Of a stretch of DNA of 25,594 bases, positions 3,534 to 25,594 are shown one piece after another. Below the pieces are notes generated by a model that saw only the letters and a program-made list of their open reading frames with translations, was not told where the DNA came from and made no database searches. The stretch is taken from the IMG/VR virus record IMGVR_UViG_3300017758_000119, positions 1 to 25,594 of that record, one strand, 5' to 3'. Origin of the DNA: a virus. Position numbers and translations under genes: made by a program. Position 1 is the stretch's first letter. Every line of letters begins with the position of its first letter.

Positions 3534-3753
3534 TTTTTTTCCTACGTTTCTTTTTGCCTAATTTTTCTATTGCTTCGTACACTTCAGGTGGTGTTGAAAG
3601 TGTGTGTTGCTCAACCCATCTCTTGTATCCCTTCAACCATTCTTCCTGTGTGACGGGTTTGGACATGTGATCCAACAATGATTTTTCGGTGAGCGGTTCC
3701 TCGAGATCACCCTTTAAAACTTTTATCAATCTTCTTTTACTAATTCGTGACAT
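3520..3753 (-). CDS. Small basic protein of unknown function between gp47 and gp46
   Basis: A 77-residue, lysine/arginine-rich protein that I do not recognise. It begins with a basic stretch 'MSRISKRRLIKVL', has a middle part with 'TQEEWLKGYKRWVEQH' that could form an amphipathic helix with tryptophans, and ends in a highly basic tail 'KKKRRKKNVND'. No signal peptide or membrane segment is visible. Its start overlaps the end of gp47 by 14 nt and its end overlaps the start of gp46 by 14 nt. This compact arrangement on the coding strand argues that it is a real gene translated with the two nuclease subunits. A role bound to the gp46/47 complex or to DNA is a guess from position and charge only. 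Confidence 0.7.
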   Translation of the reverse strand: MSRISKRRLIKVLKGDLEEPLTEKSLLDHMSKPVTQEEWLKGYKRWVEQHTLSTPPEVYEAIEKLGKKKRRKKNVND

Positions 3754-4762
3754 CTAGATCGTTGTAAATTGCTGTTAATACGTTTTTGTCATAGACTTCT
3801 GAATCCACACCCTGCAACTGTTTGACAACTATTTGATCCACACTGTCAAACTTCTGCACTTCCACCAATGGTTGTCGTGCGTTGTCCACCTGCTCTGGTA
3901 TCAGTTGTAGTTCTCGGAGTTGATATTTGTCTATGAACGTTTCTCTAACGAAGTTCGCTTCTTCGTAACTAATTTTTATATCTAGTGTTACCCGCACATA
4001 CATTTTTGGTTTCAGGTACTTGTCTGGATCTTCTAGTAGTTCAGACACTTTAATAGTGATGTATCTCGGCATATCTGGCCAATTGATATATTTAGGTTTG
4101 CCGCCCATTTCTATAATCATCATGCCTCGGTCATCGTCCCAGGCATCTGCATAGTTGTGTGGAAATGCGTTGCCCATGTAAGTGACGTTCTTCATTACTT
4201 GTCTTTTATGGAAGTGTCCTGAGAACACTTGTCCACAGTTGGCAAAATGATCCGTCTGTATTCCTCCAACGTCTGGCATCTCCACCATTGCGTTCATTTT
4301 GAAATACGGCAGTTCAAAGTGTCCAAACACATACTGTTGTTTCATCTTTTGTATTTTTTTATATTCATCACCTACTATCCATGGGATAATTGCAACATCG
4401 TCTTCGACAAGCCATTCGTTAACAAGATGTATGTTTGGTATGTTTCTTATGAACTCCATGGAATTAATTTCCCTTTTTTCTCTGTAGAATAAATCGTGGT
4501 TACCCATGATAACATAAACTTTTTCAAATGCCGCACCCAGTCTTTCCATGTTGGAAACTGTGTAGTTCATTGTGGATACATTCGTTGAAGATCTATGATG
4601 ATGCCAGTCGCCCAGGAATATACAGGTCTCACAACCTTCTGCCTTCGCTTGTGATATGAACCATTTTACGAAATCCTCACAGTCATCGTTGTGTATCCTA
4701 GAATTACCCTTCATGCCGAAGTGTATGTCCGTGAAACAGGCTACCTTTTTAAAGAATGCCAT
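3740..4762 (-). CDS. gp47: Recombination endonuclease subunit gp47 (Mre11/SbcD-like nuclease)
   Basis: Catalytic subunit of the gp46/47 nuclease. The 340 residues (T4 gp47 is 339) contain every calcineurin-like phosphoesterase motif in order: D12-I-H14 in 'FTDIHFG'; 'GDWHHH' (G51, D52, H54); 'GNHD' (G87-D90) with the catalytic histidine H89; 'GHFE' (H148); and 'SGHFH' (H183, H185). These residues bind two metal ions, normally manganese. The C-terminal third (about 230-340) fits the capping and Rad50-contact region. The start lies 3 nt after the gp55 stop, and the stop overlaps the following 77-residue gene by 14 nt, so the three are probably one transcript. All catalytic residues appear present, so the enzyme should be active. 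Confidence 0.95.
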   Translation of the reverse strand: MAFFKKVACFTDIHFGMKGNSRIHNDDCEDFVKWFISQAKAEGCETCIFLGDWHHHRSSTNVSTMNYTVSNMERLGAAFEKVYVIMGNHDLFYREKREINSMEFIRNIPNIHLVNEWLVEDDVAIIPWIVGDEYKKIQKMKQQYVFGHFELPYFKMNAMVEMPDVGGIQTDHFANCGQVFSGHFHKRQVMKNVTYMGNAFPHNYADAWDDDRGMMIIEMGGKPKYINWPDMPRYITIKVSELLEDPDKYLKPKMYVRVTLDIKISYEEANFVRETFIDKYQLRELQLIPEQVDNARQPLVEVQKFDSVDQIVVKQLQGVDSEVYDKNVLTAIYNDLDVTN

Positions 4763-4765
4763 TGA

Positions 4766-5749
4766 TTACCATTTCTTCTTAACGATTGGTTTATGATTAG
4801 TCATGTCTATCTTGTTCTTAAACTTGACGTCTTCAAAATCATCTGAATCTAGTTTGCCTTTTTTCTTCAACACTTTGTTTAATTTTTTCAAAGTTGTCTT
4901 GTTGACTTCATGCACGTCGCCGTGAGCGGTCTTCATTCTTTTTTTGTACGAAGGGCCAGTGCTTTCATTCTCGTTCTGCCTAGTGAAGCTTGGCATCATG
5001 CCGTTGTATTCCAGCAAGTCGTCACGTATCGATTGATTTTTCTTTTCTATGTTCAATATTCTGGTGAAACTGTTTGTGATTGCCGCCGTGTAGTATGCGA
5101 ACGGATTGTCCGACTTTGATTCATCGAACTGTAGTCCTATCTGACTCAATTGCATCAGCGCCTGTGACTGCATCTCGTCATTGTATGTGTAACCTCTCCA
5201 GTTTGCCCTTGTGCCATAACGTTCACACAATTTCATGTACATCATGGCCAACTGGTTTGTCATCTTGCCATGGTCCACGCTGAAGTGTCCGTTGCTCATT
5301 CCGCCAATCCAATGACTCTTGCCCACGCAGATTAGTTTGCTATTCTTGTCAAATTTGTAATGTTGGAATGGGGGAAAGTTGACCTTGGAGTGATGGTCCG
5401 CAGTGCTTTTTGGATTTTTCTTCCTTTCGTTGTCCATTGGTACGTGGTCGAACATCATTACCCTGAACACTAGATCTGTTTTCTCTATCTTTCTTGGACT
5501 CACTGTGTAGTCCGCTAATTTTATCTTTTTAAGTCCTGCTTCCTTGGCCTGTTCCCATGCTTCTTGTGTTAGCCTCTTTGCCTTGGCCTTACGTGCCTGT
5601 GCCACAGCACTGGCGTTGACCTTCTTCAGATTGGGTACAATTAAATCATACCGTGCGTCCTCCGGCGTAACATATGAGCAGTAGGTGTTCTTGCTGGCGT
5701 GTATTTGTGCCAACAGATCTCGGTTATTTAGGTACTTGACTCTCTTCAT
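4766..5749 (-). CDS. gp55: Late-transcription sigma factor gp55, enlarged
   Basis: Sigma factor that directs host RNA polymerase to late promoters of the TATAAATA type. The 327 residues carry two blocks similar to T4 gp55 (185 residues). The extreme N-terminus 'KYLNNRDLLAQI' matches the T4 start. Region-2-like helices run from about residue 165 to 250, including 'WRGYTYNDEM' (W184), 'FDESKSDNPFAY' and 'RILNIEKKNQ'. Between the two blocks lies an insertion of roughly 130 residues: first lysine/alanine-rich and helical, then 'FPPFQHYKF' and 'GKSHWIGGMSNGHFSVDHG'. The C-terminal tail is basic with an acidic patch 'DSDDFEDVKF', which might play the part of the T4 sliding-clamp-binding tail; that is speculative. 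A strong minus-strand ribosome binding site (AGAAGGA, 5754-5760) precedes the ATG. This is the first gene of the leftward operon and diverges from the late baseplate operon. Confidence 0.85.
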   Translation of the reverse strand: MKRVKYLNNRDLLAQIHASKNTYCSYVTPEDARYDLIVPNLKKVNASAVAQARKAKAKRLTQEAWEQAKEAGLKKIKLADYTVSPRKIEKTDLVFRVMMFDHVPMDNERKKNPKSTADHHSKVNFPPFQHYKFDKNSKLICVGKSHWIGGMSNGHFSVDHGKMTNQLAMMYMKLCERYGTRANWRGYTYNDEMQSQALMQLSQIGLQFDESKSDNPFAYYTAAITNSFTRILNIEKKNQSIRDDLLEYNGMMPSFTRQNENESTGPSYKKRMKTAHGDVHEVNKTTLKKLNKVLKKKGKLDSDDFEDVKFKNKIDMTNHKPIVKKKW

Positions 5750-10662: not shown

Positions 10663-11088
10663 ATGGCATACGGAGATTCAGGATCAGGTTCAGGAGCAGG
10701 TGGCTTATCAAACAAGTCTGTAACCTTCAAGGGTTTCAGTTCACGTGCCGACAAGAAGAACTTCAAACTGTATGACTTTGAGGTTGCCAAGCAGGACCTC
10801 ATCAACAGATTAAGCATACGTAAGGGCGAGAGGGTCGAGAACCCTGAATTCGGCACTATAATATATGATGCCATATTCGAACCATTCACAGAACAACTTA
10901 AAGACGCCATTGTTGAGGATGTTACTGCCAATCTTAATGCTGATCCACGTATTGCAACAGAAGAGATATTGGTAACAGAAGCGGACAAGGGCATAGCCAT
11001 ACAGGCCACTATTACATATGTTCCGCTTAACATTACAGAGAAATTGAGATTCAATTTTGACGAAAACTCACTATTGCGTCTATCTTAA
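10663..11088 (+). CDS. gp25: Baseplate wedge subunit gp25
   Basis: A 141-residue member of the GPW/gp25 (TssE-like) family, part of the wedge core that nucleates the sheath. The family core is clear: 'LYDFEVAKQDLINRLSIRKGERVENPEFG' region at about 40-68, then 'YDAIFEPF', and a C-terminal 'ITYVPLNITEKLRF'. T4 gp25 is 132 residues. Members were once called lysozymes, but no catalytic role is established. The N-terminus has a Gly/Ser-rich lead 'GDSGSGSGAGG' before the fold. The start lies 9 nt after the gp5 stop, and no AGGA-type ribosome binding site is visible upstream, unlike most neighbouring genes. Confidence 0.92.
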   Translation: MAYGDSGSGSGAGGLSNKSVTFKGFSSRADKKNFKLYDFEVAKQDLINRLSIRKGERVENPEFGTIIYDAIFEPFTEQLKDAIVEDVTANLNADPRIATEEILVTEADKGIAIQATITYVPLNITEKLRFNFDENSLLRLS

Positions 11089-11130: not shown

Positions 11131-14100
11131 ATGGCCACAACAGATAGACAGAACAGATTACTAGTAGCGGAAGATTGGAGAAAGATCTACCAGGCATTCC
11201 AACAGGCGGATTTCAAATCTTACGATTTTGAGACACTGAGAAGGACTATGGTTGCCTATCTCCGTGAGAACTACCCAGACGATTTCAACGATTTTGTAGA
11301 GAGTTCGGAGTACGTGGCACTTATAGATCTGATAGCATACATATCGCAGGCCCTATCTTTTAGGGTTGATTTAAACGCTAGGGAGAATTTCCTTGAAACT
11401 GCGGAAAGAAGAAATTCAGTATTAAGATTAGCACGGCTAATCAACTACAATGCCAAGAGAAACAAACCTGCAACAGGACTATTGAAGATAGATAGTATAT
11501 CCACATCACAAGATGTGCTAGACAGTTCTGGAACGAATTTAGCAAATTCAAATATCATATGGAATGATTCCGCAAACGCCAACTACAGAGAGCAGTTTAC
11601 TGCTATTTTGAATGCGGCAAACCAAACCGGACAACTGTTTGGCAATCCAAGAGAGTCTGGGAAAATAGGCGGCATAAACACGGAAGTCTACACATTAAGT
11701 TCTAACCAGTTGGATCTGCCTGTATTTAATTTTACTAAAGGTGTCGGAGGCATAAGCAGAAATTTTGAGATTGTTTCAAGCACTATCACAGATTCAGATT
11801 CTATATATGAGTCATCACCTGTGCCAGGAACAGGACTGACATACACATACAGAACAGACGGTGCTGGTGACAGTTCAAACAACACAGGATTCTTTTTTCT
11901 TTTTAAACAAGGAACATTAGAGCAAACAGACTTTACTGTTGATACATCAGTAACAAACTACGTAAAAAGTTTAGAAACAACAAATATTAACGACTCGGAT
12001 ATTTGGCTATACAAATTAGATCAGTTTGGACAGATATTGAACTTGTGGTCTAAGGTTCCGTCATTAGCTGGAAACAATGCAATTTATAATTCATTGTCCA
12101 AAGCGGAGCGAAATACCTACAATGTAGTGACTAAGAATAACGACGCTATAGACTTTGTATTTGGTGATGGCAACTTCTCGAACATACCACTAGGCAGTTT
12201 CAGGACCTACTATAGGGTCAGCGACAATGCCAAGTTTGCTATACAACCAGCCGACATGCAGAATGTACAGTTGACCGTGCCTTATACTGATGCCAACGGT
12301 GCTCAGCAGTCGTTAACCTTGAGTATAAGTTTAAAGGCAAGTGTCTACAATTCAGCGGCGACAGAATCCAACGAATCAATTAAGGAAAAAGCATCGCAGG
12401 TTTATTATTCACAGAACAGGATGATAACCGCTGAGGACTACCAAGTGGTTCCCTTGTCTGCATCACAGGAGATTGTTAAAGTGAGATCCGTAAACAGGTC
12501 AGCCTCAGGCATAAGCAGAGCCAAAGAAATTTTAGATCCAACAGGTGCTTATTCAAACGTCAGTGTGTTTGCAGAGGATGGAATACTTTACAGGGAAGAA
12601 TCAACACAACAGTTTACTTTTACTTTCAACAACAGGAGTGACATACAGTCTACAATAGATACATCTGTGGAAGCCAAGTTAAAGGAAGCATACGCAAGGC
12701 AATTTTATTATTTAAAATACGCTACAAAAGATGTCAGCACTCTTACTGCAACATGGAATTCAACGACAACTTCCACTAACACCAACACTGGATACTTCAC
12801 ATCAGGTGGTGCATTAGTAATAGGTGACTCGGCCACTTCCAACTTAAAGTATGCCAAACCCGGAGCATTGGTCAAGTTCACTTCCCCAGACACTAGAAAG
12901 TTCTTAAACGGGACTTTGGTTACTTCAACAACGGACAATGCAGAGGATAGACTATGGGCCAAGATAGGAGCGGTCGTGCTAGATGGTGCCAACAGTGGAT
13001 TGGGAAATTTAGAATCAGGCGTAGGTCCTGTGACTTTGAACAACATAGTTCCAAATGGTTCCGTGATAAATGCAATTATCCCTAACCTTACCACGTCATT
13101 TTCAGCAACACTTGAAGCAGATATTATAGCTAGAATTGAAGCGTATGAAGAATTTGGACTTAGATACGACATTGATACAGAAACATGGAAGGTAATAACT
13201 TCAACTAACTTATCGGCTAGCACAGTTTTTAGCCTCGGTAATCAAGGTAGCACAGCAGGAACAAACGCAGACGCCAGTTGGTGGTTCAAGTTCACGAATG
13301 ACGGAAACACTTACACAGTGCAGTTCAGAAAATTAGATTACATCTTTGAATCAGAATCGCAGAACAAGTTTCATTATGACCTTGAGGAAAAAATTTATGA
13401 TTATAAAACTGGTAAGAGCGTAAAAGACACAGTAAAAATATTAAAGACCAACAGCATTGTTTCATCAGGTAATAGTATTGGTTACCCATTAACTTGGCAA
13501 GTTGTGGACACAGTAACGGAATCAGACGGATTCCAGGACAACAGGAAAGTTAAAGTTGGTTTCTTTGATGATGACGATGACGGGGTAGTTGACAATCCTG
13601 AACTGTTCGACATTATAATTGAACCAACTGTCTCAGAATCAACTAAATTTGTGTTCTCTGAAAAATATCTTTCTTATGACAAAATAGAACGATATAAACC
13701 ATACGCTTCCTCTAATTTTGTTGTGAGCCAAAATGAGGCAGATATTAATCTTAGCACTGGAAATTACACAGACGGCCAATTATTTTATTTTTATGACGAG
13801 GATGAAGATGTAGTTAAAAAATACAGTTCCACTACAAATACACTTACAACTAGCACTGACTACATAGCAAGGAAAGGCAGAGGTAGTATAAGTTTCCAAT
13901 ACAAACATCATGCAGGGCAGGAAACCAGGATTGATCCCAGCGTTTCCAACATAGTAGATGTATATCTTTTAGAAAGGACGTATGATAATCTATACAGGAT
14001 CTATCTGCAAGACGGTGGTACTAAACCAGACACGTCAACTGCGGATCAGTTAAGGATAAGTTATTCAGGGACACTAAATCCTCTGAAATCACTCTCCGAT

Positions 14101-14619
14101 CAAATAGTCTACCATCCGGTAAAATACAAAGTGCTATTTGGTACCAATGCAGAAGAAGAACTGCAGGCAACATTTAAGGTTGTTAAAAATCTTAAGACAA
14201 ACGTGTCGGACGCAGTCATTAAGACACGTGTCATTGCCGCTATCAACGAATTCTTTGCACTTGATAATTGGGATTTTGGTGATGCATTTTATTTTACAGA
14301 ATTAGCCGCTTACATACACAACCAACTGGCTCCAGACTTGTTGACGGTAGTCATTGTACCAAATCAATCGGGACAGACATTTGGATCTCTGTTTCAGTTG
14401 AATTCCGCGGCGGACGAAATTTTTATCAGTGGGGCCACCGTTGATGATGTTTCTATCATAACTGCACTTGGAGCCAACCAATTGGCATCCTCTGGCACTG
14501 TGGTTACATCAACATCAACTGCCACGACAAGTTCTACATCAGGATCAGCAGTATCAGGCTCTACTACAACCAGTTCCGGCTCAAGTTCAAGTTCGGGCAG
14601 TAGTGGATCAGGATATTAA
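11131..14619 (+). CDS. gp6: Baseplate wedge protein gp6, enlarged
   Basis: A 1162-residue wedge protein (T4 gp6 is 660) that forms the inner ring of the baseplate. The N-terminal block is characteristic: 'EDWRKIYQAFQQADFKSYDFETL' region, 'YVALIDLIAYISQALSFRVDL', 'NFLETAERRNSVLRLARLI'. Baseplate-J-like segments follow, with 'FVFGDGNFSNIPLG' and 'NESIKEKASQVYYSQNRMITAEDYQ' (about 340-435). Residues about 540-715 look like an inserted Thr/Ser-rich domain. An acidic loop D813-D817-G-V-V-D821 resembles calcium-binding DxDxDG loops. The C-terminal gp6 dimerisation region is seen in 'ELAAYIHNQLAPDL'. The last 42 residues are a Ser/Thr/Gly-rich low-complexity tail. No Shine-Dalgarno sequence precedes the ATG. 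Its TAA overlaps the next ATG (TAATG). Confidence 0.88.
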   Translation: MATTDRQNRLLVAEDWRKIYQAFQQADFKSYDFETLRRTMVAYLRENYPDDFNDFVESSEYVALIDLIAYISQALSFRVDLNARENFLETAERRNSVLRLARLINYNAKRNKPATGLLKIDSISTSQDVLDSSGTNLANSNIIWNDSANANYREQFTAILNAANQTGQLFGNPRESGKIGGINTEVYTLSSNQLDLPVFNFTKGVGGISRNFEIVSSTITDSDSIYESSPVPGTGLTYTYRTDGAGDSSNNTGFFFLFKQGTLEQTDFTVDTSVTNYVKSLETTNINDSDIWLYKLDQFGQILNLWSKVPSLAGNNAIYNSLSKAERNTYNVVTKNNDAIDFVFGDGNFSNIPLGSFRTYYRVSDNAKFAIQPADMQNVQLTVPYTDANGAQQSLTLSISLKASVYNSAATESNESIKEKASQVYYSQNRMITAEDYQVVPLSASQEIVKVRSVNRSASGISRAKEILDPTGAYSNVSVFAEDGILYREESTQQFTFTFNNRSDIQSTIDTSVEAKLKEAYARQFYYLKYATKDVSTLTATWNSTTTSTNTNTGYFTSGGALVIGDSATSNLKYAKPGALVKFTSPDTRKFLNGTLVTSTTDNAEDRLWAKIGAVVLDGANSGLGNLESGVGPVTLNNIVPNGSVINAIIPNLTTSFSATLEADIIARIEAYEEFGLRYDIDTETWKVITSTNLSASTVFSLGNQGSTAGTNADASWWFKFTNDGNTYTVQFRKLDYIFESESQNKFHYDLEEKIYDYKTGKSVKDTVKILKTNSIVSSGNSIGYPLTWQVVDTVTESDGFQDNRKVKVGFFDDDDDGVVDNPELFDIIIEPTVSESTKFVFSEKYLSYDKIERYKPYASSNFVVSQNEADINLSTGNYTDGQLFYFYDEDEDVVKKYSSTTNTLTTSTDYIARKGRGSISFQYKHHAGQETRIDPSVSNIVDVYLLERTYDNLYRIYLQDGGTKPDTSTADQLRISYSGTLNPLKSLSDQIVYHPVKYKVLFGTNAEEELQATFKVVKNLKTNVSDAVIKTRVIAAINEFFALDNWDFGDAFYFTELAAYIHNQLAPDLLTVVIVPNQSGQTFGSLFQLNSAADEIFISGATVDDVSIITALGANQLASSGTVVTSTSTATTSSTSGSAVSGSTTTSSGSSSSSGSSGSGY

Positions 14620-14621
14620 TG
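14617..14621 (+). promoter_or_regulatory. TAATG stop-start coupling site, gp6 to giant gene
   Basis: The gp6 stop and the next start share one base (TAATG). AGGAT at 14610-14614 lies just upstream inside gp6 and can serve as ribosome binding site. The same design occurs at 6721-6725 and 9164-9168. It fixes the start of the giant gene at 14619. Confidence 0.7.
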
Positions 14622-17600
14622 GCCGACAATATAACAAATCCATCAGCAAACAATGAAGTTGTAAAGCAAGGCACCAACGAGTACAGACGATCTGTGCAAC
14701 ATTTGCCTGCTTTCTACAGGACAGATACTAACCAAAGATTCTTGTCAAGCACGATTGATCCTTTGATACAGCAAGGTAACCTAGAAAGACTAGATGGGTT
14801 TATCGGCAGGCAGGACGCCTACACTAGAGATGTCACTGACAGGTATTTGCCGGCAACCAGCAGAGACAGGATGGCTTATCAACTTGAACCTGCTGTAACT
14901 TACACGAACAAAGACACAACGTCAATAAATCCAGAAGACCAAGTACAGTTCACGGGTACCTATGATGATTACCTTAATCAAATAAAGTATTTCGGTGGTA
15001 ATGTTGACAATCATGATAGATTGAACAAAGAGACAGTCTACAGTTGGAATCCAGCAATTGACTACGACAAATTGGTAAACTACAGGGAGTACTATTGGAT
15101 ACCGGAGGGACCTGGTGCAATAGAGATAGATACGCTTGGGCCGTCTGTTGTTGCAGAGTACAAAGTAGAAATTGCAGAAGCTGATGGAAGTTCTGCAAGG
15201 GGTTACAGTTTCCCGCACAGGGAAAATGAGAGGAATCCTAGTATTACCTTGTACAGGGGTAACACATACAAGTTCAATGTGAATGCAAAAGGACATCCTT
15301 TCTACATAATGACTGAACCATACAAAAGCCAAGTTTCGGAGGATGGTTCAACATCCACACTTTTTAACACTGGTGTTACAAACAACGGTGCAGACTATGG
15401 AACGGTTACATTTACAGTTCCGACTGCAGGTGTGCCTGACACACTTTACTATCAATGTAGCAATCATGATGCCATGTATGGTATATTACAAATAAGGGAC
15501 ATCACCAGCACGGTTAAAATAAATCCTGACAACGACATTATAGGTGTAAAAAATTATAGTCTAAGGACTTTAGATCTTTCAAATGGAATGAAGGTGAAGT
15601 TTACAAACAGTCTGGTACCGACTGAGTATCAAGATAAAGAATACTATGTTGAAGGTGTTGGTGACGCTATCACGCTGACGAACGTTGAGGATCTTATCAC
15701 TCCTGGATCCTATGCCACAGAGTCTACTATACTTTATGATTCCGTGGCCTATGACTCACGACCATATGCAAAGGCTTACTACACTCCAGATACTACAGAT
15801 TATATCACAATAAAAAGAGACAGTCTAGACCAAAATGCGTGGTCCAGGTACAACAGATGGTTTCACAAATCCATTATCGAAGAGACAGCCAGGGTAGGAG
15901 GTTTTACTCCTAATTTGGACGAGGGCGACAGGGCCAAGAGACCAATCATAGAGTTTGATTCGGGACTTGCACTGTACAACCATGGAACAGTGGCCAAGAA
16001 ATCTGTAACTTTGTACGACACAGTAACCACTGATGCGTTCAGCAACGTTGTACTGCAAACAGGTTACATAATAGATGGACTTGCTCTAGCCGAGGGCATG
16101 AGGGTAATTTTTGCCGCAGACACTGATCCAACTGTTAAAGGCAGAATATACAAAGTCAGCTTTGCGACTGCAGGTGACAGTTCACAGGTGATATCATTGA
16201 CACAGGAGCCTGACGGTGTACCAGGAGTTAATGACAGTGTGTTCATAGAATTTGGTACAGACAACCAAGGAAAAACTTTCAATTACGATCTTGCAACAAC
16301 CTCATGGCAGGAGTCACAACAAAAAACAAAAGTAAATCAACAACCATTATTCAGTATGTTTGACAATAATCATGTATCGTTTGATGATCCTACTACGTAT
16401 CCAAACTCGTCGTTTGTAGGAGCAAAAGTTTTTGAATTTGCAACTTCAGACACAGCAACCGAAGACACCGTACTTGGTATAAAGGTAAAATACAACACAA
16501 TCAACAATGTTGGAGATATAGTTTTTGATTCCGATCATACATCAGGAAGTTTCACCTACAAAAGTGGCACAACAACTGTAACAAAAAAATTAGGGGAAGG
16601 ACACCTACACTACACCACAGGACGTACAACACACAACTCCAGAAGTTCTTGGATAAAAAGAACAGTAAACAGTAAACAGCGTGTCGTAAGGACCTTAATA
16701 GTTGATGCAACAGAAAGACAGTTGTTTCCAATTGATGTATATAAAAATTCAGCTTTACTATCTGACATAGAGGTGTCTGTCAACATAAACGGAGTTAGGA
16801 AAACACTGACTACAGACTACACACTAGTTGACGGAACTACAAACAAATATATAAAATTTAACAACAAACTTGCCGTAGACGATCAGGTTAGAATTGCAAC
16901 GTATAGCAGTGCTGACAAAGTAAGTGATAAAGGTATATATGAGGTACCACAAAATTTATCAACCAACAGTCTTAACGAACAGTTAGGTACTTTCACCTTT
17001 GGGCAAATACTAAATCATGTCAGAGACATATTAGATAGGAATCAGGAGGTTACCGGCAGTATTCCAGGTGTGTCCAACCTAAGGGACAAACCAGACGCTA
17101 GACTCAAAGGTGGTAGCATCCAGCAACACGAGGCACCATTGCTTCCTGCCGTGTTTAGCATTATAGATCAAGATTCAAATGCAATTACAGCCATCGATTA
17201 TTCAAATAAGGAATACGAAAAATGGTACAACGCATTCCTTACACATGCCACAGGCACTGCGTACGAAGGCGTGGCCACAGATAGGGTTGACGAAATTATA
17301 GCGGCAATAACTCCAGGAAGAAACAGCAGTTTCCCATTCTATTATGAAGACATGATAGGCTATGGTGAAAACGTTTCCAAAAGGTCATACACTGTAATGG
17401 GTGCGACCCAGACGGAATATGCATTAGACTCGCAACACACTATTACAAAAACAAGTAACAGGGCAGTTTATGTGTACTTGAATGACGTCCAACTTTTATT
17501 AGGGACAGATTACACTTTCAGCACTGTAGATGACAGTGTAGTCATTTCCAAAGCCCTAGTCGAGGGTGATAAAATTGTAATAAAAGATTACGAGGACACC

Positions 17601-20600
17601 ACAGGTAGTTACATGCCACCGTCGCCTACCAAATTGGGAATGTATCCGAAATACACTCCTGAAATATACACTGATACCACTTATCTCACAAACACTTCCG
17701 TGATAAGGAAACACGATGGATCAATTATAAAAGCATACGGTGACGAACGTGATGATCTTATTTTAGAACTAGAGAAAAGGATTTATAACAATATTAAGGT
17801 ATCATATGATTCAGATTTACTTGAAATAAATGACGTGATGCCTAGTGCTTTTAGCTCTACAGAATACAAGTCTACAGAGATAGACAATGTAATGGGTCCT
17901 GATTTTTATCAATGGGCGGGTCGGAACAACGTGCAATACATTAACAACACTGTGTTCTCAGAAGGATCCCCATTCACATACAACTATTCTAGATCGAAAG
18001 GAAGACTGACTGGTGAGAACCTACCAGGACACTGGAGAGGCATATACAAATATTTCTATGACACTGATGCACCTCACGTGAGACCATGGGAGATGCTAGG
18101 CAATTCCCAAAAGCCTTCGGACTGGGAGGCAACATATGGCCCCGCACCGTACACATCTGCAAATGACGTGCTGTGGAACGCCATAGCGACACAGACCGGA
18201 AGGTACGGTAAGCCTGAGATCAAAACATACTTGCCGGTAGATGCATCTGGCAACCTTCTGGATCCACTTGCGGCAGGAGTAGTTGACAATTTTGACATAC
18301 CAGGTAGGCAGAACGCTTGGAAGTTCGGAGATCAAGCCCCAGCGGAGACGGCATGGAGGAGATCCAGTGCATTTCCGTTTACCGTATTAAAAACATTGGC
18401 ACTTACAAAGCCGGCAAAATTCTTCTCAAACTTTTTTGATACATCAAGGCTTTCGACTAACGTTTCTAATAATCAAATTGACACAGATACTGGAATAAGG
18501 AGATCATTGGCCACGGCCAAGTACCACCTTGAAACAGAAACCAACAATGCAACGGGTGTTACTACTCGATACCAAACAACAGGCTATCAGCCCTACGTGG
18601 TGAATTATCTGGTTTCAAGAAACCTCGACGCCAAATCATTCTATTATGACAAGATGAAGGAGTTGACTGTCCAGTTGTCCTACAAGCTAGGTGGGTTTAC
18701 TGATAAAGCAAATTTAAAAGTGCTTACAGACAGTGTGTCACCTGGATCAACGGCAGGTTCAAAATTTATTCCTGATGAAAACTACAAAATAGTTTTTAGA
18801 ACTTCAAATCCTGTTGAAAGTTTTTACTACTCAGGTGTCCTAGTTGAGAAGAACACAGACATCAGCGAAGATGGGTCAACTGTGTTACCTGGATTCAAGG
18901 TACTAGGTTACAGCACAGTCAAACCATATTTCAGCTTCAATTATCCTGTGAAAACTTCTACAGAGACACCGGTATCAGTTGGGGGATCGATTACAGTAAA
19001 ACAATACAATACATATGAAGAAAACACACAAACAATACCTTATGGATATGTGTTTGACACCATACAAGACGTAGCTGATTTCTTGTTTGGTTATGGATAC
19101 TGGCTTGAAACACAGGGATTCAAATTCAACAAGTTTTCAACTGAAATCAAAGAAACATTAAACTGGTCTAACGCAGTAAGAGAATTCTTATTTTGGACAA
19201 CACAGGATTGGGCTCCCGGAGCCGCGGTCACTGTATCTCCGGCCGCGGATGGGTTCGAGCTCGACACTAATAACAGTGTGGTTGGAAAATTAAGGAATCT
19301 AGCAGGCGACTACTCAATATTAGATGCTGGCGGAAGAAAGATAGATATAAAAGAAATATCGACCAAAAGGATAGGAAAAACTTTTGAGTTGGGCATCAAG
19401 TCTGATACAGTCGGACTTTACAACGTTGCACTAAACACAGTGCAAAAAGAACATCTATTGTTATTTGATAACAAGACTGTGTTCTCGGACATTATATATG
19501 AGCCAAGCACTGGTTTTAGACAGCAGAGATTAAAGTTGGTAGGTTGGAAAACAGCAGGGTGGAATGGTGACTACTATGCACCAGGCTTCGTGTTTGACGC
19601 CGCACAGGTGACATACTGGTTGGCCAACACAGACTACAGGATAGGAGACAGTGTTGAGTACCAAGGAAAGTTCTACGTAGCCAAGACAAATCACAACTCG
19701 GGGACTAGCTTTGTTACTGCAAACTGGACACAGAAAGATAATAAACCAGCGCCGCAACTTATTCCAAACTTTGAATACAAGATATCGCAGTTCAACGACT
19801 TCTATGAGCTAGAAACTAATAACTTCGATGAATCACAGCAACAACTGGCTCAAAGATTGATAGGATATCAGAGCAGAGACTACCTAGAAAATCTTTTTGT
19901 CAATGACGTATCGCAATATAAGTTTTATCAAGGTTACATTAGAGAAAAAGGCACACAGAACGCAATTGACAAGATCTTAAAAGCCAAGTACGAAGGAGAA
20001 GATATAAGTTTAGATCTATATCCTGAATGGATGATCAGGACAGGCAATTTTGGAAATCAAGATTCTATAGAAAACATACAAATTACAATGAAGGACAACG
20101 AAATCACTAAAAATCCTCAGAGTATTGAACTTCTAGACAATAGCAGTGACACAGTATCATATTTGGGGTCACGTGGGATAGTCAAAGAGAATTTTTATTA
20201 CAAACCTGTTGAGTACACAGCGTCGACTACATTCAGCAGGCTGGACTACACCAAGGAGGGTGTAAGTAGGGACACCGCACAGGTTTTTAAGACAGCAGGG
20301 TATCCACAACTTACACAGGTGCAACACACCGCATTCAACATAGCAGATCTTTTGAACCTTGACATCAATAACATCAAAGGTAATGACCTCGTATGGGTTG
20401 CCAATAAGAGCAACAATGATTGGGACGTTTTTAGAATTACAAATGTTGGTTTTAAAATAGCAAATCTTATTTTAATCAATGACAGCACACAATTAGAGAT
20501 TACATTCACTGGTTCTCATGGATTGTCGGCAGGATCACGTACCACACAGGCAGACTACTTTGCCATATCCAACAGTGAGGAGACTACCTTGAACGGCGTG

Positions 20601-23600
20601 TACCAGGTATCTGCTGTGCCAAGTCACAAGTCAATAATAATAGACTACACAGGAAATGTTGGATTTATTCCTGCATTGGAAGATGGATCCACAGCTGACA
20701 GTTTTGGAAATGTTTTGAAATTCATATCTGTGAGGTTGGCATCAATGGACAATGTAAACGATCTCCTAAATTATGCAGAATACAAAGACAGGGTAGATGA
20801 AATAGAAAAGCCGGGTGACAAAGTGTTTGCGGACACTGACAGTGCGGGCCTATGGCACGTGTATGAAAAGCAAGACCCGTACACATCTCAATTGATACTA
20901 TCCCCTGACTCAAGCACCACGGACCAAGAGTTCGGACACAGAATTGTGGCACGTAATGATGGTAGGACCATCATTGCTTCCGCACCAGGAAAAGGGCAAG
21001 GTGAGGTACACTTTTTATTCAGGAGTTCTAGCACTGCTGGTACTGTGTTCCAAACACAGTCAACTGCAACAATGACTGAAAATAATGACAACACCAGTAG
21101 GTTAGGTGATTCATTATCCATCAGCACAGACGAGAACTTTGTAGTGGCAGGTGCACCTTTTACTAACACACTTGATTCGGACGACAGCACAAGACAACTT
21201 GATTCAGGTCTAATCAAAATATATCTATGGAACCCTAGCACTTTCACGTATGGAATCCTAAACACTATACGCCCACCAACAGATGGATCCACTGCAAATG
21301 ATGGACTTAACTTTGGCCATGCACATAAGATATCAGAACCTGGATCTAGTTCTGTAAGATCAACAGCAACGAAATATCTTTTTGTTTCCGCACCAGGACA
21401 CGACAGTAACCAGGGAAGGGTGTACATGTACACTTGGGGTGTTGGGGCAGACGGTTCTACGTACGACACGTGGACACAGGACTACACGATAGAAGCACCT
21501 GATGGTGGATCAGGACAGAGATTTGGTCATAGATTGGCCGCCAACGACAACGGTGATATTCTGGCAGTGTCTTCGTTGGCTCCAGGCAATGCAGGCAAGG
21601 TGGAGATATTCAGGAGAACATCACAGAGCAATGACGGTAGCACACAGAATTCATTCGCCCTTGCACAGACACTCACGGGTGTTTCAGCAGACGGATCATC
21701 ACTGAACACAGCGTTTGGTGAGTCTATAGCGATGAGCAAAGACGGCACAACACTGATAATAGGGGCTCCGGGCGTTGATGATGGTAGCACCGGTCAAATA
21801 GATGGCGGTGCAGTGTACTACTACAAATGGAATGCTGATGGATCAACCAACACATACACTCTACAGCAAACAATAAAAGCACCAGATACCAGTAACAACA
21901 TCAAATTTGGAACAACGTTGGACATTAACCATGACGGCACCAGGGCAGTCATTGGCGCTGAACAATTTGCAAGTTTTAGGGAAATGAAATTTGATTCAGG
22001 AGAGACAACTTATGACCTACAGGACACAGGCATAGTTGACTTGAATATCGGTTCCGGAGGCGCCTTCACTGCAACCATGTACAACAGCAAGTTCGTGATC
22101 GACGACAGCCTTATGATCGACAATGTTACTGAGAACGACGACTTTGGACGTGGCGTGTGCATGACTAACAACAGGCTACTAGTTGGTGCCCCACAAGACA
22201 ACGGTAACGTTGGATCAGATGGTAGTACAAAAATTAGCAAAGACGGAACATTGGTTTGTTTTGATCTGAAAACTGACGGAGAGTACGCTTGGAAAAATTT
22301 AGTAACAGAGACACCACTGATAGACATAGAAAAATTAGGGAAAGTGTTTGAGTTCAACAACAGAAGTAAAGAGATTGGTGAGTACTACGATCTTTACGAT
22401 CCAATCAAAGGCAGAATACTAGGAGTGGCAGATAGAGAAATTAATATCAAGACTGCTTGGGATCCTGCAACATATAATTTTGGAACCAATGCTAACAGCA
22501 AGACACCATGGGCTGAAGAACACCTTGGTGAGACGTGGTGGAACCTTTCAACGGTCAAATGGTTATGGTATGAGCAGGACACACAAGAATACAAACAGAA
22601 TAATTGGGGTAAAATCTTTCCTGGTTCAAGCATAGATGTGTATGAATGGACGGAATCAAGGTTACTTCCGAGCCAATGGAATTTAAGAGCAGAGGGATCT
22701 GGACAGACAATCACTGGAACTGCACTTTACGGAGATGACTCCCAGTACTCTGTAGTTGAGAGATATGACTCTAGACTGGATCGTTTTGTTAACATATACT
22801 ACTACTGGGTAAGAGGCAAGACAACCTTGCCTGAAAACAGTGTGGTACACAGGAAAAGCACTGTAGGCGCAGTGAGTAACCTTATAGCAAACCCTATTGC
22901 TTTTGGCAACAGGTACTATGCAGTCACAGACACAAATAAATTATTGGTAAACAATGTGCGTGGACTGATCGATGACCATGTAGTTCTTAACGTAGACATC
23001 AGGACAAACAACTACGACGGTGACTCACACTCTGTGTGGAAGTTGGCCAGAGAGGGAGACGCAGACTACAGACCAGGAAACACAATAGAAGCACGTTGGT
23101 GGGACTCATTGATTGGAAAAAACAGCACTGGGGATCTTGTGCCAGATCCAGAGTCAGCAGTGAATGAGAGATATGGAAACAGTGTAAGACCTAGACAAAG
23201 TTGGTATGTTGACAGATTCGCGGCCCTTAAGGAAATAATAGATTATTCAAACACGGTGCTTAAAAAGAACCAACTGGCGGGACAGATAAATTTAGATAAC
23301 TTAGATAGCAAAGAACCAGAACCAACGGCACAGAGCCTTGAATGGGACCAATCCGTTAATACATATGCGGAACTAACTTACTTGAACACTGCAGAACTTT
23401 CTGGCAGTGTGAAATATCTTGTCAAAGCTGATGAGACTGCTAACAATTACTGGGCGATATACACTTGGGATGGCACAGAATTTACTAGGACAAAACTACA
23501 AACATACAACACATCGGCTTACTGGAGTTACACAGATTGGTACGGAACAGACCCGGATGTGCATCTAATGGCTCACAATGAAAACACTCCTATTGATAAA

Positions 23601-25594
23601 CAGGTGACATATCAATACGAGTTGGATTCGTTGGATGTTGCCATAGGTAAACACGTCAAGGTAACCAACGCCGATACTGGCGGATGGAAACTGTTTATGA
23701 AGACAGCGACTGGCTTTACCAATGTCGGAACGGAAAATGGCACAATAAGATTAAGCACTAAACTGTATGATTACTCACTGGATGCCACAGGCTTTGCAGG
23801 TGCTGATAATTTTGATGACAACTTTTTTGATCAAGAACCAAGCACAGAGACAAGGAACATCTTGACCGCTTTGAGGGACGACCTATTCATCAACGATTTG
23901 GCAATCGAATACAACACACTATTCTTCACAGGTTTGAGAAAAGTGCTTTCCGAACAGACCTACGTGGATTGGATGTTCAAGACTTCATTTATAAATGTAA
24001 AAAATTCTGTAAGACAACTGGATCAGAGAAAAACTTACACAACCGGAACAGACAGTTGGATAGAAAGTTACATAAACGAGGTCAAACCGTTCCACACAAA
24101 ATTAAGAGAGTACAGACTAGGGTACAACAAGACTGAAACCCAAGACGGTATCTACACAGACTTCGATAATCCACCTTTTTATGACGCAGGCACAGGCAAA
24201 ATTAGACCTTTGAATGTAAACCTAGACACTGATAAACTAACAGAATACCCTTGGCAAATGTGGAATGACTACCACAAGAAGTACGTATCTTCCATAACTG
24301 TCACTGCAGGTGGTTCAGGTTATACTAAAACGCCAACTGTGACAATAGTTGGGGGTACAGTTGCTAGTACAGGGCCATTCCAATTACAGGCAACAAGTTC
24401 AAGTGGATCTACGTCAGGCACGTATGGTTACTACTACCCATTATTCTCCAACCAAACGCAGGCTAAGATATGGGATAGCCAGAATGGTGGTTCAGGCACT
24501 ACAAACACCTACACGTTCGAAGGTTACACAGCGACTTTCTATGGCCCAAGCACATCAATAACTGCCACATCCACAAAGTCGGGTGCATATAAATTATACG
24601 AAACACCTTCGGTAACAGCGGCAACGGCCACGGCAACTATACAGGATGGCGCGGTGACTAAAATTGCTGTGACGGGCATAGGTGCAAATTACACCGCAAC
24701 ACCAACAGTGGTGATCACTGGTGGAACAGACGATGGGTCAACGCCAACAGACACTGCCAAAGCATACCCTAACCTGAGCAACGACCTAGTAAGAGATTTC
24801 GACACCACAATAAAATTTGATAGGGTGTCAAGTACATCCAGGGTGGTGGATTGGACAGCAAGTACAAGTTACGCCTACAACGATCTTTTAAGATACAGTA
24901 ATCAGCTTTACAAAGTGACAAATGCATTTACGTCGACAACTGATTTCGATGAGGGCATAGGCAACCTTTACAAAGTATACGGCAACGAGACCGGAGTCAC
25001 AGCGGCAGACAGGACAAAAGGATTTTACACTCCAGGGTCCGGCATGCCAGGCAACGAATTAGACCAAGTCATGACAGGTGTCGACTACGGTGGAACAATG
25101 GTGACGGGACTATTGTTTTCACAAGAAGCAGGTTGGGACAACGAAGGTTGGTATGATTTCCCATGGGACAACTATGGTGAATCTAGGATCAAGGCATTTA
25201 GGGCAGACGGAACAAACAATGATTACACTTTTGACACTGCTCCAGCAACAACAGATGTGTTCCAGGTGTACATTACACAAGATGATAGCACAAGGAAAAA
25301 ACTTCCTGACTTGATCAGAGGAGATGGATCAACAGTACGCTTTGCAATCACGGAAACACCCGAGGCGAATGCACTTGTTGAGTTCATACCTTTTGACGAC
25401 GACGGTGTGCTAACGCCAACAGATGATAGAACGCTGGATACACTAGTTAAGGGTGGACTGTTCACATCAGCACTTGGACACGCACCTAGCGACATTGTGT
25501 TAGAGGGCGATCAATTTGTGTCACCAGATACAAGTTACGCACCTGAAGAAGTCGTTCCTGGACAGATGTTTGACACAGTAGACATCAAAGTTTA
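14619..25594 (+). CDS. Giant baseplate structural protein in gp7 position (3'-partial)
   Basis: An uninterrupted frame of at least 3,658 codons, still open at the right edge. The position after gp6 is that of T4 gene 7 (wedge, 1032 residues), and the N-terminus ('LPAFYRTDTNQRFLSSTIDP', 'YLPATSRDRMAYQLEP', 'YSWNPAIDYDKLVNYREYYW') is typical of very large structural proteins in marine T4-like phages, annotated gp7-like or VrlC-like as I recall. Domains seen: a cupredoxin-like domain (residues 206-294); a beta-rich region with 'YYWIP'- and 'VYVYLNDVQLL'-type segments; a carbohydrate-binding-like module (about 1667-1703, W1667, W1703); seven FG-GAP-like blades (about 2105-2540); a conserved block 'VDWMFKTSFI' and 'ESYINEVKPFHTKLREY' (about 3117-3165); paired GGSGY-type repeats (about 3231 and 3353); and a second binding-like module from W3412. 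No signal peptide or membrane span is visible at the N-terminus. Wedge assembly plus surface-exposed recognition is the likely role; equivalence to gp7 is inferred. Confidence 0.85.
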   Translation, partial: MADNITNPSANNEVVKQGTNEYRRSVQHLPAFYRTDTNQRFLSSTIDPLIQQGNLERLDGFIGRQDAYTRDVTDRYLPATSRDRMAYQLEPAVTYTNKDTTSINPEDQVQFTGTYDDYLNQIKYFGGNVDNHDRLNKETVYSWNPAIDYDKLVNYREYYWIPEGPGAIEIDTLGPSVVAEYKVEIAEADGSSARGYSFPHRENERNPSITLYRGNTYKFNVNAKGHPFYIMTEPYKSQVSEDGSTSTLFNTGVTNNGADYGTVTFTVPTAGVPDTLYYQCSNHDAMYGILQIRDITSTVKINPDNDIIGVKNYSLRTLDLSNGMKVKFTNSLVPTEYQDKEYYVEGVGDAITLTNVEDLITPGSYATESTILYDSVAYDSRPYAKAYYTPDTTDYITIKRDSLDQNAWSRYNRWFHKSIIEETARVGGFTPNLDEGDRAKRPIIEFDSGLALYNHGTVAKKSVTLYDTVTTDAFSNVVLQTGYIIDGLALAEGMRVIFAADTDPTVKGRIYKVSFATAGDSSQVISLTQEPDGVPGVNDSVFIEFGTDNQGKTFNYDLATTSWQESQQKTKVNQQPLFSMFDNNHVSFDDPTTYPNSSFVGAKVFEFATSDTATEDTVLGIKVKYNTINNVGDIVFDSDHTSGSFTYKSGTTTVTKKLGEGHLHYTTGRTTHNSRSSWIKRTVNSKQRVVRTLIVDATERQLFPIDVYKNSALLSDIEVSVNINGVRKTLTTDYTLVDGTTNKYIKFNNKLAVDDQVRIATYSSADKVSDKGIYEVPQNLSTNSLNEQLGTFTFGQILNHVRDILDRNQEVTGSIPGVSNLRDKPDARLKGGSIQQHEAPLLPAVFSIIDQDSNAITAIDYSNKEYEKWYNAFLTHATGTAYEGVATDRVDEIIAAITPGRNSSFPFYYEDMIGYGENVSKRSYTVMGATQTEYALDSQHTITKTSNRAVYVYLNDVQLLLGTDYTFSTVDDSVVISKALVEGDKIVIKDYEDTTGSYMPPSPTKLGMYPKYTPEIYTDTTYLTNTSVIRKHDGSIIKAYGDERDDLILELEKRIYNNIKVSYDSDLLEINDVMPSAFSSTEYKSTEIDNVMGPDFYQWAGRNNVQYINNTVFSEGSPFTYNYSRSKGRLTGENLPGHWRGIYKYFYDTDAPHVRPWEMLGNSQKPSDWEATYGPAPYTSANDVLWNAIATQTGRYGKPEIKTYLPVDASGNLLDPLAAGVVDNFDIPGRQNAWKFGDQAPAETAWRRSSAFPFTVLKTLALTKPAKFFSNFFDTSRLSTNVSNNQIDTDTGIRRSLATAKYHLETETNNATGVTTRYQTTGYQPYVVNYLVSRNLDAKSFYYDKMKELTVQLSYKLGGFTDKANLKVLTDSVSPGSTAGSKFIPDENYKIVFRTSNPVESFYYSGVLVEKNTDISEDGSTVLPGFKVLGYSTVKPYFSFNYPVKTSTETPVSVGGSITVKQYNTYEENTQTIPYGYVFDTIQDVADFLFGYGYWLETQGFKFNKFSTEIKETLNWSNAVREFLFWTTQDWAPGAAVTVSPAADGFELDTNNSVVGKLRNLAGDYSILDAGGRKIDIKEISTKRIGKTFELGIKSDTVGLYNVALNTVQKEHLLLFDNKTVFSDIIYEPSTGFRQQRLKLVGWKTAGWNGDYYAPGFVFDAAQVTYWLANTDYRIGDSVEYQGKFYVAKTNHNSGTSFVTANWTQKDNKPAPQLIPNFEYKISQFNDFYELETNNFDESQQQLAQRLIGYQSRDYLENLFVNDVSQYKFYQGYIREKGTQNAIDKILKAKYEGEDISLDLYPEWMIRTGNFGNQDSIENIQITMKDNEITKNPQSIELLDNSSDTVSYLGSRGIVKENFYYKPVEYTASTTFSRLDYTKEGVSRDTAQVFKTAGYPQLTQVQHTAFNIADLLNLDINNIKGNDLVWVANKSNNDWDVFRITNVGFKIANLILINDSTQLEITFTGSHGLSAGSRTTQADYFAISNSEETTLNGVYQVSAVPSHKSIIIDYTGNVGFIPALEDGSTADSFGNVLKFISVRLASMDNVNDLLNYAEYKDRVDEIEKPGDKVFADTDSAGLWHVYEKQDPYTSQLILSPDSSTTDQEFGHRIVARNDGRTIIASAPGKGQGEVHFLFRSSSTAGTVFQTQSTATMTENNDNTSRLGDSLSISTDENFVVAGAPFTNTLDSDDSTRQLDSGLIKIYLWNPSTFTYGILNTIRPPTDGSTANDGLNFGHAHKISEPGSSSVRSTATKYLFVSAPGHDSNQGRVYMYTWGVGADGSTYDTWTQDYTIEAPDGGSGQRFGHRLAANDNGDILAVSSLAPGNAGKVEIFRRTSQSNDGSTQNSFALAQTLTGVSADGSSLNTAFGESIAMSKDGTTLIIGAPGVDDGSTGQIDGGAVYYYKWNADGSTNTYTLQQTIKAPDTSNNIKFGTTLDINHDGTRAVIGAEQFASFREMKFDSGETTYDLQDTGIVDLNIGSGGAFTATMYNSKFVIDDSLMIDNVTENDDFGRGVCMTNNRLLVGAPQDNGNVGSDGSTKISKDGTLVCFDLKTDGEYAWKNLVTETPLIDIEKLGKVFEFNNRSKEIGEYYDLYDPIKGRILGVADREINIKTAWDPATYNFGTNANSKTPWAEEHLGETWWNLSTVKWLWYEQDTQEYKQNNWGKIFPGSSIDVYEWTESRLLPSQWNLRAEGSGQTITGTALYGDDSQYSVVERYDSRLDRFVNIYYYWVRGKTTLPENSVVHRKSTVGAVSNLIANPIAFGNRYYAVTDTNKLLVNNVRGLIDDHVVLNVDIRTNNYDGDSHSVWKLAREGDADYRPGNTIEARWWDSLIGKNSTGDLVPDPESAVNERYGNSVRPRQSWYVDRFAALKEIIDYSNTVLKKNQLAGQINLDNLDSKEPEPTAQSLEWDQSVNTYAELTYLNTAELSGSVKYLVKADETANNYWAIYTWDGTEFTRTKLQTYNTSAYWSYTDWYGTDPDVHLMAHNENTPIDKQVTYQYELDSLDVAIGKHVKVTNADTGGWKLFMKTATGFTNVGTENGTIRLSTKLYDYSLDATGFAGADNFDDNFFDQEPSTETRNILTALRDDLFINDLAIEYNTLFFTGLRKVLSEQTYVDWMFKTSFINVKNSVRQLDQRKTYTTGTDSWIESYINEVKPFHTKLREYRLGYNKTETQDGIYTDFDNPPFYDAGTGKIRPLNVNLDTDKLTEYPWQMWNDYHKKYVSSITVTAGGSGYTKTPTVTIVGGTVASTGPFQLQATSSSGSTSGTYGYYYPLFSNQTQAKIWDSQNGGSGTTNTYTFEGYTATFYGPSTSITATSTKSGAYKLYETPSVTAATATATIQDGAVTKIAVTGIGANYTATPTVVITGGTDDGSTPTDTAKAYPNLSNDLVRDFDTTIKFDRVSSTSRVVDWTASTSYAYNDLLRYSNQLYKVTNAFTSTTDFDEGIGNLYKVYGNETGVTAADRTKGFYTPGSGMPGNELDQVMTGVDYGGTMVTGLLFSQEAGWDNEGWYDFPWDNYGESRIKAFRADGTNNDYTFDTAPATTDVFQVYITQDDSTRKKLPDLIRGDGSTVRFAITETPEANALVEFIPFDDDGVLTPTDDRTLDTLVKGGLFTSALGHAPSDIVLEGDQFVSPDTSYAPEEVVPGQMFDTVDIKV
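15234..15500 (+). other. Cupredoxin-like domain inside the giant baseplate protein
   Basis: Residues 206-294 of the giant protein begin with 'ITLYRGNTYKFNV', like the first strands of blue-copper proteins. H226 lies in 'GHPFYI', and 'YYQCSNHDAMYG' gives C280, H283 and M286. This is the full type 1 copper ligand set (His, Cys, His, Met) in the right order, with the Cys-x2-His part as in plastocyanin and a short His-x2-Met. A copper-binding role is inferred; a stabilising metal site without redox function is equally possible. Confidence 0.65.
19617..19727 (+). other. Carbohydrate-binding-like module in the giant protein
   Basis: Residues 1667-1703 read W-x5-Y-x2-GD-x-V-x-Y-x-G-x-x-Y-x-A-x10-... 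ending in NW, the aromatic pattern of CBM5/12-type chitin-binding modules. A second, looser copy starts at W3412 (24852): 'WTASTSYAYNDLLRYSNQLY'. In phage tails such modules often mediate surface contact. The ligand is unknown. Confidence 0.45.
20931..22260 (+). repeat. Seven FG-GAP-like repeats (predicted beta-propeller)
   Basis: Seven segments in the giant protein begin with FG or LG followed by a short strand, then a 'VVAGAP/IIGAP/LFVSAP' strand and often a 'GxVxxYxW' strand. Their phenylalanine or leucine starts are residues 2105, 2162, 2232, 2302, 2366, 2430 and 2509, a spacing of 57-79 residues. This is the blade pattern of FG-GAP (integrin alpha-type) seven-bladed propellers. Complete DxDxDG calcium loops are not seen. 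The repeats have diverged at DNA level, so this is a protein repeat and not a recent duplication. Confidence 0.7.
24309..24731 (+). repeat. Paired GGSGYT..PTVTI repeats
   Basis: Residues about 3231-3245 ('GGSGYTKTPTVTIVGG') and about 3353-3368 ('GIGANYTATPTVVITGG') are two copies of a short beta-repeat common in phage tail proteins. They flank a Tyr/Gly/Ser/Thr-rich segment with 'YYYPLF' and 'YTFEGYTATFYGP', which may be one inserted domain framed by the repeats. Confidence 0.5.

Follow-up and report, generated by a model that had tools for sequence, protein, structure and literature searches.

What protein is encoded directly after the baseplate wedge gene gp6 in a large marine virus, and does it take the part that gp7 plays in T4? 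The window, which is the entire IMG/VR record IMGVR_UViG_3300017758_000119 (25,594 nucleotides), represents an uncultivated marine lineage within the RaK2-, PA5oct- and Atu_ph07-type large myoviruses. Its plus strand carries a gp25-like sheath initiator/baseplate wedge subunit of 141 aa (10663..11088; PF04965, 30.3 bits, over the cut-off; phrog_261/43), a gp6-like baseplate wedge subunit of 1162 aa (11131..14619; phrog_10646 baseplate wedge subunit, E 4.6e-290) and a giant virion structural protein gene of at least 3658 codons (14619..25594) that is open at the contig end. A profile that includes the window gp25 matches gp25 in 16 of the 16 records tested, and by tblastn the window gp6 matches jumbo-phage proteins annotated as baseplate wedge.

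A single intact giant gene follows gp6

The giant gene begins with an ATG that shares one base with the gp6 stop codon (TAATG, 14617-14621), and its frame (14619..25592, plus strand) runs through 3,658 codons with zero stops up to the window end. Since the window is the complete record, the end of the frame at the window edge is the contig end, located inside the gene. A stop-free run of this length would arise by chance with a probability of about 10^-76 for equal codons and about 10^-103 for the local base composition; the remaining frames over the same stretch contain 147-298 stops each.

The preliminary description read this region as one frame from the TAATG onward, and the relatives agree. 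A search with aa 2860-3260 yields 80 close contigs at 77-89% identity, of which 53 contain both gene ends. The gene spans 4,162-4,579 aa in 52 of these 53, with intact relatives at about 4,290 aa, and is split in one (L016). By this measure the window gene is about 85% complete, with about 630 residues missing. When profiles of the most conserved block are used as queries, the set grows to at least about 600 matches at 28-62% identity, and the complete ORFs within it (n = 65) cover 2,058-4,719 aa, mostly 4,200-4,700. In more than 100 marine contigs, as well as in jumbo phages that have been isolated (PA5oct, Atu_ph07, RaK2, CBB and 121Q), a single uninterrupted giant adjoins gp25-gp6. Four relatives (L016, L183, L203 and L228) have the giant broken into shorter frames, which in L016 encode 1,255 and 3,089 aa and reflect either a frameshift error or a real split.

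The contig end within the gene and these few split relatives would fit a long frame produced by faulty assembly or base calling. The same unbroken gene, however, recurs in more than 100 contigs and 11 phage genomes; it rules out an assembly artefact and leaves this account with a negligible chance.

The giant belongs to a family known from jumbo phages

The giant is a member of the already catalogued family PHROG 10938, 'virion structural protein' (hmmscan, E 0, 1161 bits, five stretches), and is itself known. In tblastn against annotated phages it matches the PA5oct group, Atu_ph07, Phosso, SCTP-2, Vibrio 2.275, RaK2, 121Q, GAP32, CBB and others, at 25-29% identity. The comparison group suggested earlier, marine T4-like phages, applies only in part: the nearest isolates are jumbo phages of the RaK2, PA5oct and Atu_ph07 type, whereas T4-like cyanophages have no more than the cupredoxin domain in common with the giant. 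A single gene of 3,313-4,555 aa immediately 3' of gp6 encodes the homolog in 10 of the 11 genomes inspected, namely PA5oct, Atu_ph07, RaK2, Phosso, Vibrio 2.275 (with gp6 assigned from place and size), XaC1, Munch, CBB, 121Q and XacN1. The exception is the Salicola phage SCTP-2, with gp6 at 231-235 kb and the giant, not adjacent, at 128-139 kb. Immediately 5' of its giant homolog, SCTP-2 carries another giant gene, of about 3,096 codons (L092 1-7902; SCTP-2 139271-148561), and its gp25-gp6 genes are located apart from both giant genes.

Members of the family include PA5oct gp355 (3857 aa), Atu_ph07 gp180 (4449 aa), RaK2 ORF070 (3326 aa), CBB_236 (3340 aa) and 121Q gp582 (3323 aa). The window giant has in common with the jumbo-phage homologs the family profile, the place after gp6 and the blocks aa 1-170, 300-1900 and 2600-3200, including the CBM5/12 region. 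Identity to the jumbo-phage homologs is 25-30%. The jumbo isolates differ in the cupredoxin ligand motif, which is absent from 11 of the 11 checked, and the RaK2-type members differ in missing the FG-GAP region.

Homologs of the giant are present in the virions of isolates. PA5oct gp355 was found by ESI-MS/MS according to its source record, and CBB_236 is represented in CBB virions by 21 peptides (PMC5259590). The phAPEC6 protein gp245, taken as a giant homolog by position and size, has a predicted mass of 381.88 kDa, is represented by 17 peptides and adjoins the baseplate wedge protein gp244 (PMC7247149); AP-J-162 gp58 (4455 aa) has no name beyond 'structural protein' (PMC11242549). This proteomics places the homologs in the virion and no more finely than that. 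As for the host, an initial guess of cyanobacteria was dropped, as ten relatives of 67-323 kb, possibly fragments, give no psbA/psbD-type match.

Conserved core and inserted modules

Alignments divide the giant into a conserved core (aa 1-170, 300-1900, 2600-2900 and 3000-3200) and segments that are insertions relative to the RaK2-type members: aa ~200-300 with the cupredoxin, aa ~900-1000, and aa ~2000-2600 with the FG-GAP repeats. Both the cupredoxin and the seven repeats fall into alignment gaps in the compact RaK2-type relatives. The mosaic build noted earlier is borne out by the cupredoxin, CBM5/12 and FG-GAP modules within one frame.

All features of the giant lie on the plus strand. The N-terminal segment (aa 1-170, 14619..15128), conserved in the alignment with 11 jumbo-phage homologs, has no relative in Pfam or PDB. 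It is followed by the predicted cupredoxin-fold domain (aa ~190-297, 15186..15509) and by the core common to jumbo phages (aa 300-1666, 15516..19616; alignment). Next is a CBM5/12 (chitin-binding type 3) module (aa 1667-1711, 19617..19751; PF02839, 39.9 bits, cut-off 26.2), which identifies one of the binding-like modules claimed before, and a conserved segment with the motif FYQGxIxxKGTxNA (aa 1715-1850, 19761..20168; alignment A12). The claimed propeller is supported by seven FG-GAP repeat positions counted within aa 2103-2526 (20925..22196; PF14312, 52.8 bits, over the cut-off of 23), predicted to form a seven-bladed propeller; calcium-binding DxDxDG loops were not seen in these repeats by eye.

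A core block at aa 2590-2960 (22386..23498; alignment A2) has no credible relative in a PDB sequence search, and the conserved blocks in general give nothing credible against PDB and Pfam by sequence. The last block, aa 3000-3200 (23616..24218; DWMFKTSFIN...INEVKPFHTKLREY; alignment A4), had been taken for a conserved C-terminal block. It exists as a block, but about 450 further window residues and the missing ~630 follow it, so that it is not the true C-terminus. A possible, weak second CBM5/12-like stretch was read by eye at aa 3408-3455 (24840..24983), and the relative L012 has two PF02839 stretches.

Such length and mosaic structure could also belong to a polyprotein that is cleaved into parts working as separate baseplate proteins. 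Against this, no cleavage report was found, the phAPEC6 homolog is listed as a single virion protein at its full predicted mass (PMC7247149), and conserved blocks flank the inserted modules on both sides; cleavage into separate proteins is highly improbable.

Relationship of the giant to gp7

The preliminary description placed the giant in the T4 gene 7 position. The place itself holds, as the gene lies immediately 3' of gp6, but neither profiles nor folds link it to gp7. Sliding-window profile-profile comparison (hhalign) against the T4 gp6, gp7, gp8, gp9, gp10, gp11 and gp12 families gives nothing, with a gp7 probability of at most 1.2%. Profiles of T4 gp7 and gp8 recover their own phages, used as controls, but give no match across 14 related records, made up of eleven jumbo genomes and three long contigs, whereas the gp25 profile finds gp25 in all 14. 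Because gp7 and gp8 are undetectable throughout these 14 records, the giant is the strongest candidate for the part of gp7. With T4 gp7 (the baseplate wedge initiator, 1032 aa), tail protein I and TssG, the giant thus shares its place after gp6 and, by elimination, a likely role, but it has no significant sequence or profile relation to them, and no fold relation was found in the parts modelled. The length, put at more than three times that of T4 gp7, is about four times in intact relatives (~4,290 against 1032 aa). The gp7 reading is positional only, and membership of the gp7 family is not supported.

Structure prediction, which had been proposed as a way of finding a wedge domain, points the same way, with unequal strength along the protein. 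The AlphaFold model of aa 1-1200 is good (mean pLDDT 85.9, pTM 0.76), and Foldseek finds only cupredoxins and multicopper relatives among the 50 PDB matches listed for it, with no gp7-like domain. The model of the compact relative L181, corresponding to window aa 1500-3200, is poor (mean pLDDT 66.3); Foldseek returns its own family in the viral library and no PDB match at E<=1e-3, and the low confidence of this model makes the fold test of aa 1500-3200 a weak one.

The segment aa 1715-1850 is an unproven candidate for a gp7/gpI-like core. On reading of the sequences, its conserved FYQGxIxxKGTxNA helix resembles the KGT/KGI helix of T4 gp7 and P2 gpI. Of 71 forward windows compared with a gp7-core profile of 69 sequences, aa 1751-1900 scores highest, at 18.4, and reversed-column controls reach up to 21.2. 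As the reversed null beats the forward best, the KGT motif was dropped as proof of gp7 homology, and the likeness is weak and suggestive rather than evidence. Two further routes were abandoned: PF09684 has zero matches in the giant and in T4 gp7, and is uninformative because it misses T4 gp7 as well; the gpI relatives from IMG/VR, intended for profile building, are all 99-100% identical.

The giant may nevertheless be a true, highly diverged gp7/gpI/TssG ortholog, with its wedge core at aa ~1715-1850 after the CBM and the rest made up of insertions. The best three of the 71 forward windows all contain the KGT at aa 1777-1779, which falls on the KGT/KGI helix of T4 gp7 in the alignment, and the same window reciprocally picks the same gp7 slice. 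Gene position agrees, and a whole wedge partner can be small, as in XM1 gp17 with 242 aa (PMC10457771). Yet the match has a probability of about 2%, the reversed windows outscore it, and Foldseek gives no match for a model of that part with a mean pLDDT of 66. We regard such orthology as a substantial possibility, somewhat short of an even one; it is a special case of the reading preferred below, in which a wedge scaffold stands in place of gp7.

A baseplate wedge-associated scaffold as the likely role

Overall, the observations are best explained, with reasonable though far from full confidence, if the PHROG 10938 giant is a baseplate wedge-associated scaffold that replaces gp7, and perhaps gp8, with a marine cupredoxin that probably binds one copper. 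Most likely made just after gp25 and gp6, the scaffold would sit in the baseplate, bind the gp6 dimer and span outwards, displaying beta-rich modules (the cupredoxin, the CBM5/12, the seven FG-GAP repeats and C-terminal beta repeats). These modules may touch the cell surface or anchor fibres.

The CBM5/12 and FG-GAP modules are of the adhesion type, the tails of several relatives are whiskered or hairy (Atu_ph07, PMC6102473; CBB, PMC5259590), and the SCTP-2 giant lies apart from gp6. A tail fibre, whisker or adhesin-network protein, standing beside gp6 through operon order and not as a wedge component, would account for these features. It would account less readily for a gp6-giant order held across very distant phages in which no other gp7 candidate is detectable, or for a core (aa 300-1666 and 2590-3200) largely without likeness to any adhesin in the libraries searched, and we consider it rather unlikely.

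For the wedge-associated scaffold, the earlier suggestion of a different solution from the separate peripheral proteins of T4 stands in so far as gp8 is undetectable. It is qualified by the fibre-like genes that still lie 3' of the giant in L012, where a phrog_11259 protein, two fibre-like proteins and a glycine-rich protein are encoded downstream; contact with the cell surface may come from the products of those genes instead. The giant gene is ordinary within its phage group, and it hints at a baseplate in which neither gp7 nor gp8 can be recognised. In the glycine-rich, fibre-like protein of L012 (18128-19552), the C-terminal stretch CFIAGTMISMHDGSLKPVEQVDIGDTV weakly matches a Hint domain (PF05203, E 0.018), as found in self-splicing or self-cleaving proteins.

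A predicted copper site in the cupredoxin domain

The cupredoxin-like module of the preliminary description is upheld as a predicted fold, and the present analysis newly finds in it a full type-1 copper set. AlphaFold models aa 190-300 with a pLDDT of ~73-92. Among the 50 PDB matches listed for the aa 1-1200 model, 40 of the 40 at E<=1e-3 are cupredoxins, including rusticyanin (E 5.4e-5), two-domain laccases, plastocyanin and 2ux6, a pseudoazurin with an engineered amicyanin loop (3.9e-4). The putative ligands on the plus strand are complete and in order: His226 (15294-15296), Cys280 (15456-15458), His283 (15465-15467) and Met286 (15474-15476), the last three in a short C-x2-H-x2-M loop whose spacing we take to be that of amicyanin. 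Small blue copper proteins (rusticyanin, pseudoazurin, plastocyanin and amicyanin) resemble the window domain in fold, by Foldseek, and in the ligand order His...Cys-x2-His-x2-Met; the window domain, with its predicted copper site, differs in being built into a virion protein. Sequence similarity to these small proteins is marginal (azurin, E 0.067). The best cupredoxin matches by sequence, 9rxk and 8a14, are spurious, as they align to ENLYFQS stretches that look like tags and are similar to LYYQC.

A segment at this site is present in 67 diverse relatives: 48 of them have four ligands, five a single ligand and 14 no ligand, and there is no relative with two or three. This all-or-none trait involves about two changes on the tree of the core, which means few events and strict retention of the ligands. 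Of 153 broader giants, 75 have the full motif, in most cases near aa 196-229. It is also located at aa 694-880 in L182-L184, L186 and L187 and at aa 4305-4353 in L175, giving three sites overall, and its presence at other places in the giant suggests domain transfer.

The cupredoxin domain in other marine phages

Outside the giants, a search with the domain alone yields 325 phage records, nearly all from cyanophages or marine phages; their names comprise only Synechococcus, cyanophage, Prochlorococcus, marine and Pelagibacter phages, plus one 'Actinomycetia'. Plasmids give no match. The Cys-His-Met loop (Y-x-C-x2-H-x2-M) is intact, with His-Pro-Phe upstream, in all four cyanophage proteins examined: P-SCSP2 ORF33 (L408), S-ShM2 gp9 (L409), the P-SSM2 tail spike protein (L410) and Bellamy gp29 (L100, 6990-8435). 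These tail proteins of about 300 to 1,100 residues have the domain and loop in common with the giant and are otherwise unrelated to it. A description of a copper-type domain on phage tail proteins was not found in the open literature.

It is an evenly balanced proposition that unrelated marine phages (large myoviruses, T4-like cyanomyoviruses and cyanopodoviruses) carry a mobile blue-copper module on tail or baseplate proteins. Their virions would then hold copper at the host-contact end, where it could serve redox sensing, electron exchange with the cell surface, docking to a copper receptor or stability. With a complete putative copper site that is all-or-none among relatives and located on host-contact proteins, the cupredoxin is a larger lead than the giant itself. 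If the domain binds copper, phages would be copper carriers in the sea, in parallel to the 'Ferrojan horse' idea, in which they have reportedly been proposed as iron carriers.

Genes to the left of the baseplate genes

The genes for gp46, gp47 and a late sigma factor occupy 1758-5749 on the minus strand of the window, divergent beside the baseplate genes. The layout matches that of PA5oct, and in RaK2 gp47 and the sigma factor are likewise found there. Further left are three ORFs (1163-1756 on the minus strand, 26-397 and 390-1193 on the plus strand), which comprise an ORF without a family match, a short protein that by eye resembles an oxygenase and a methyltransferase gene (phrog_8156).
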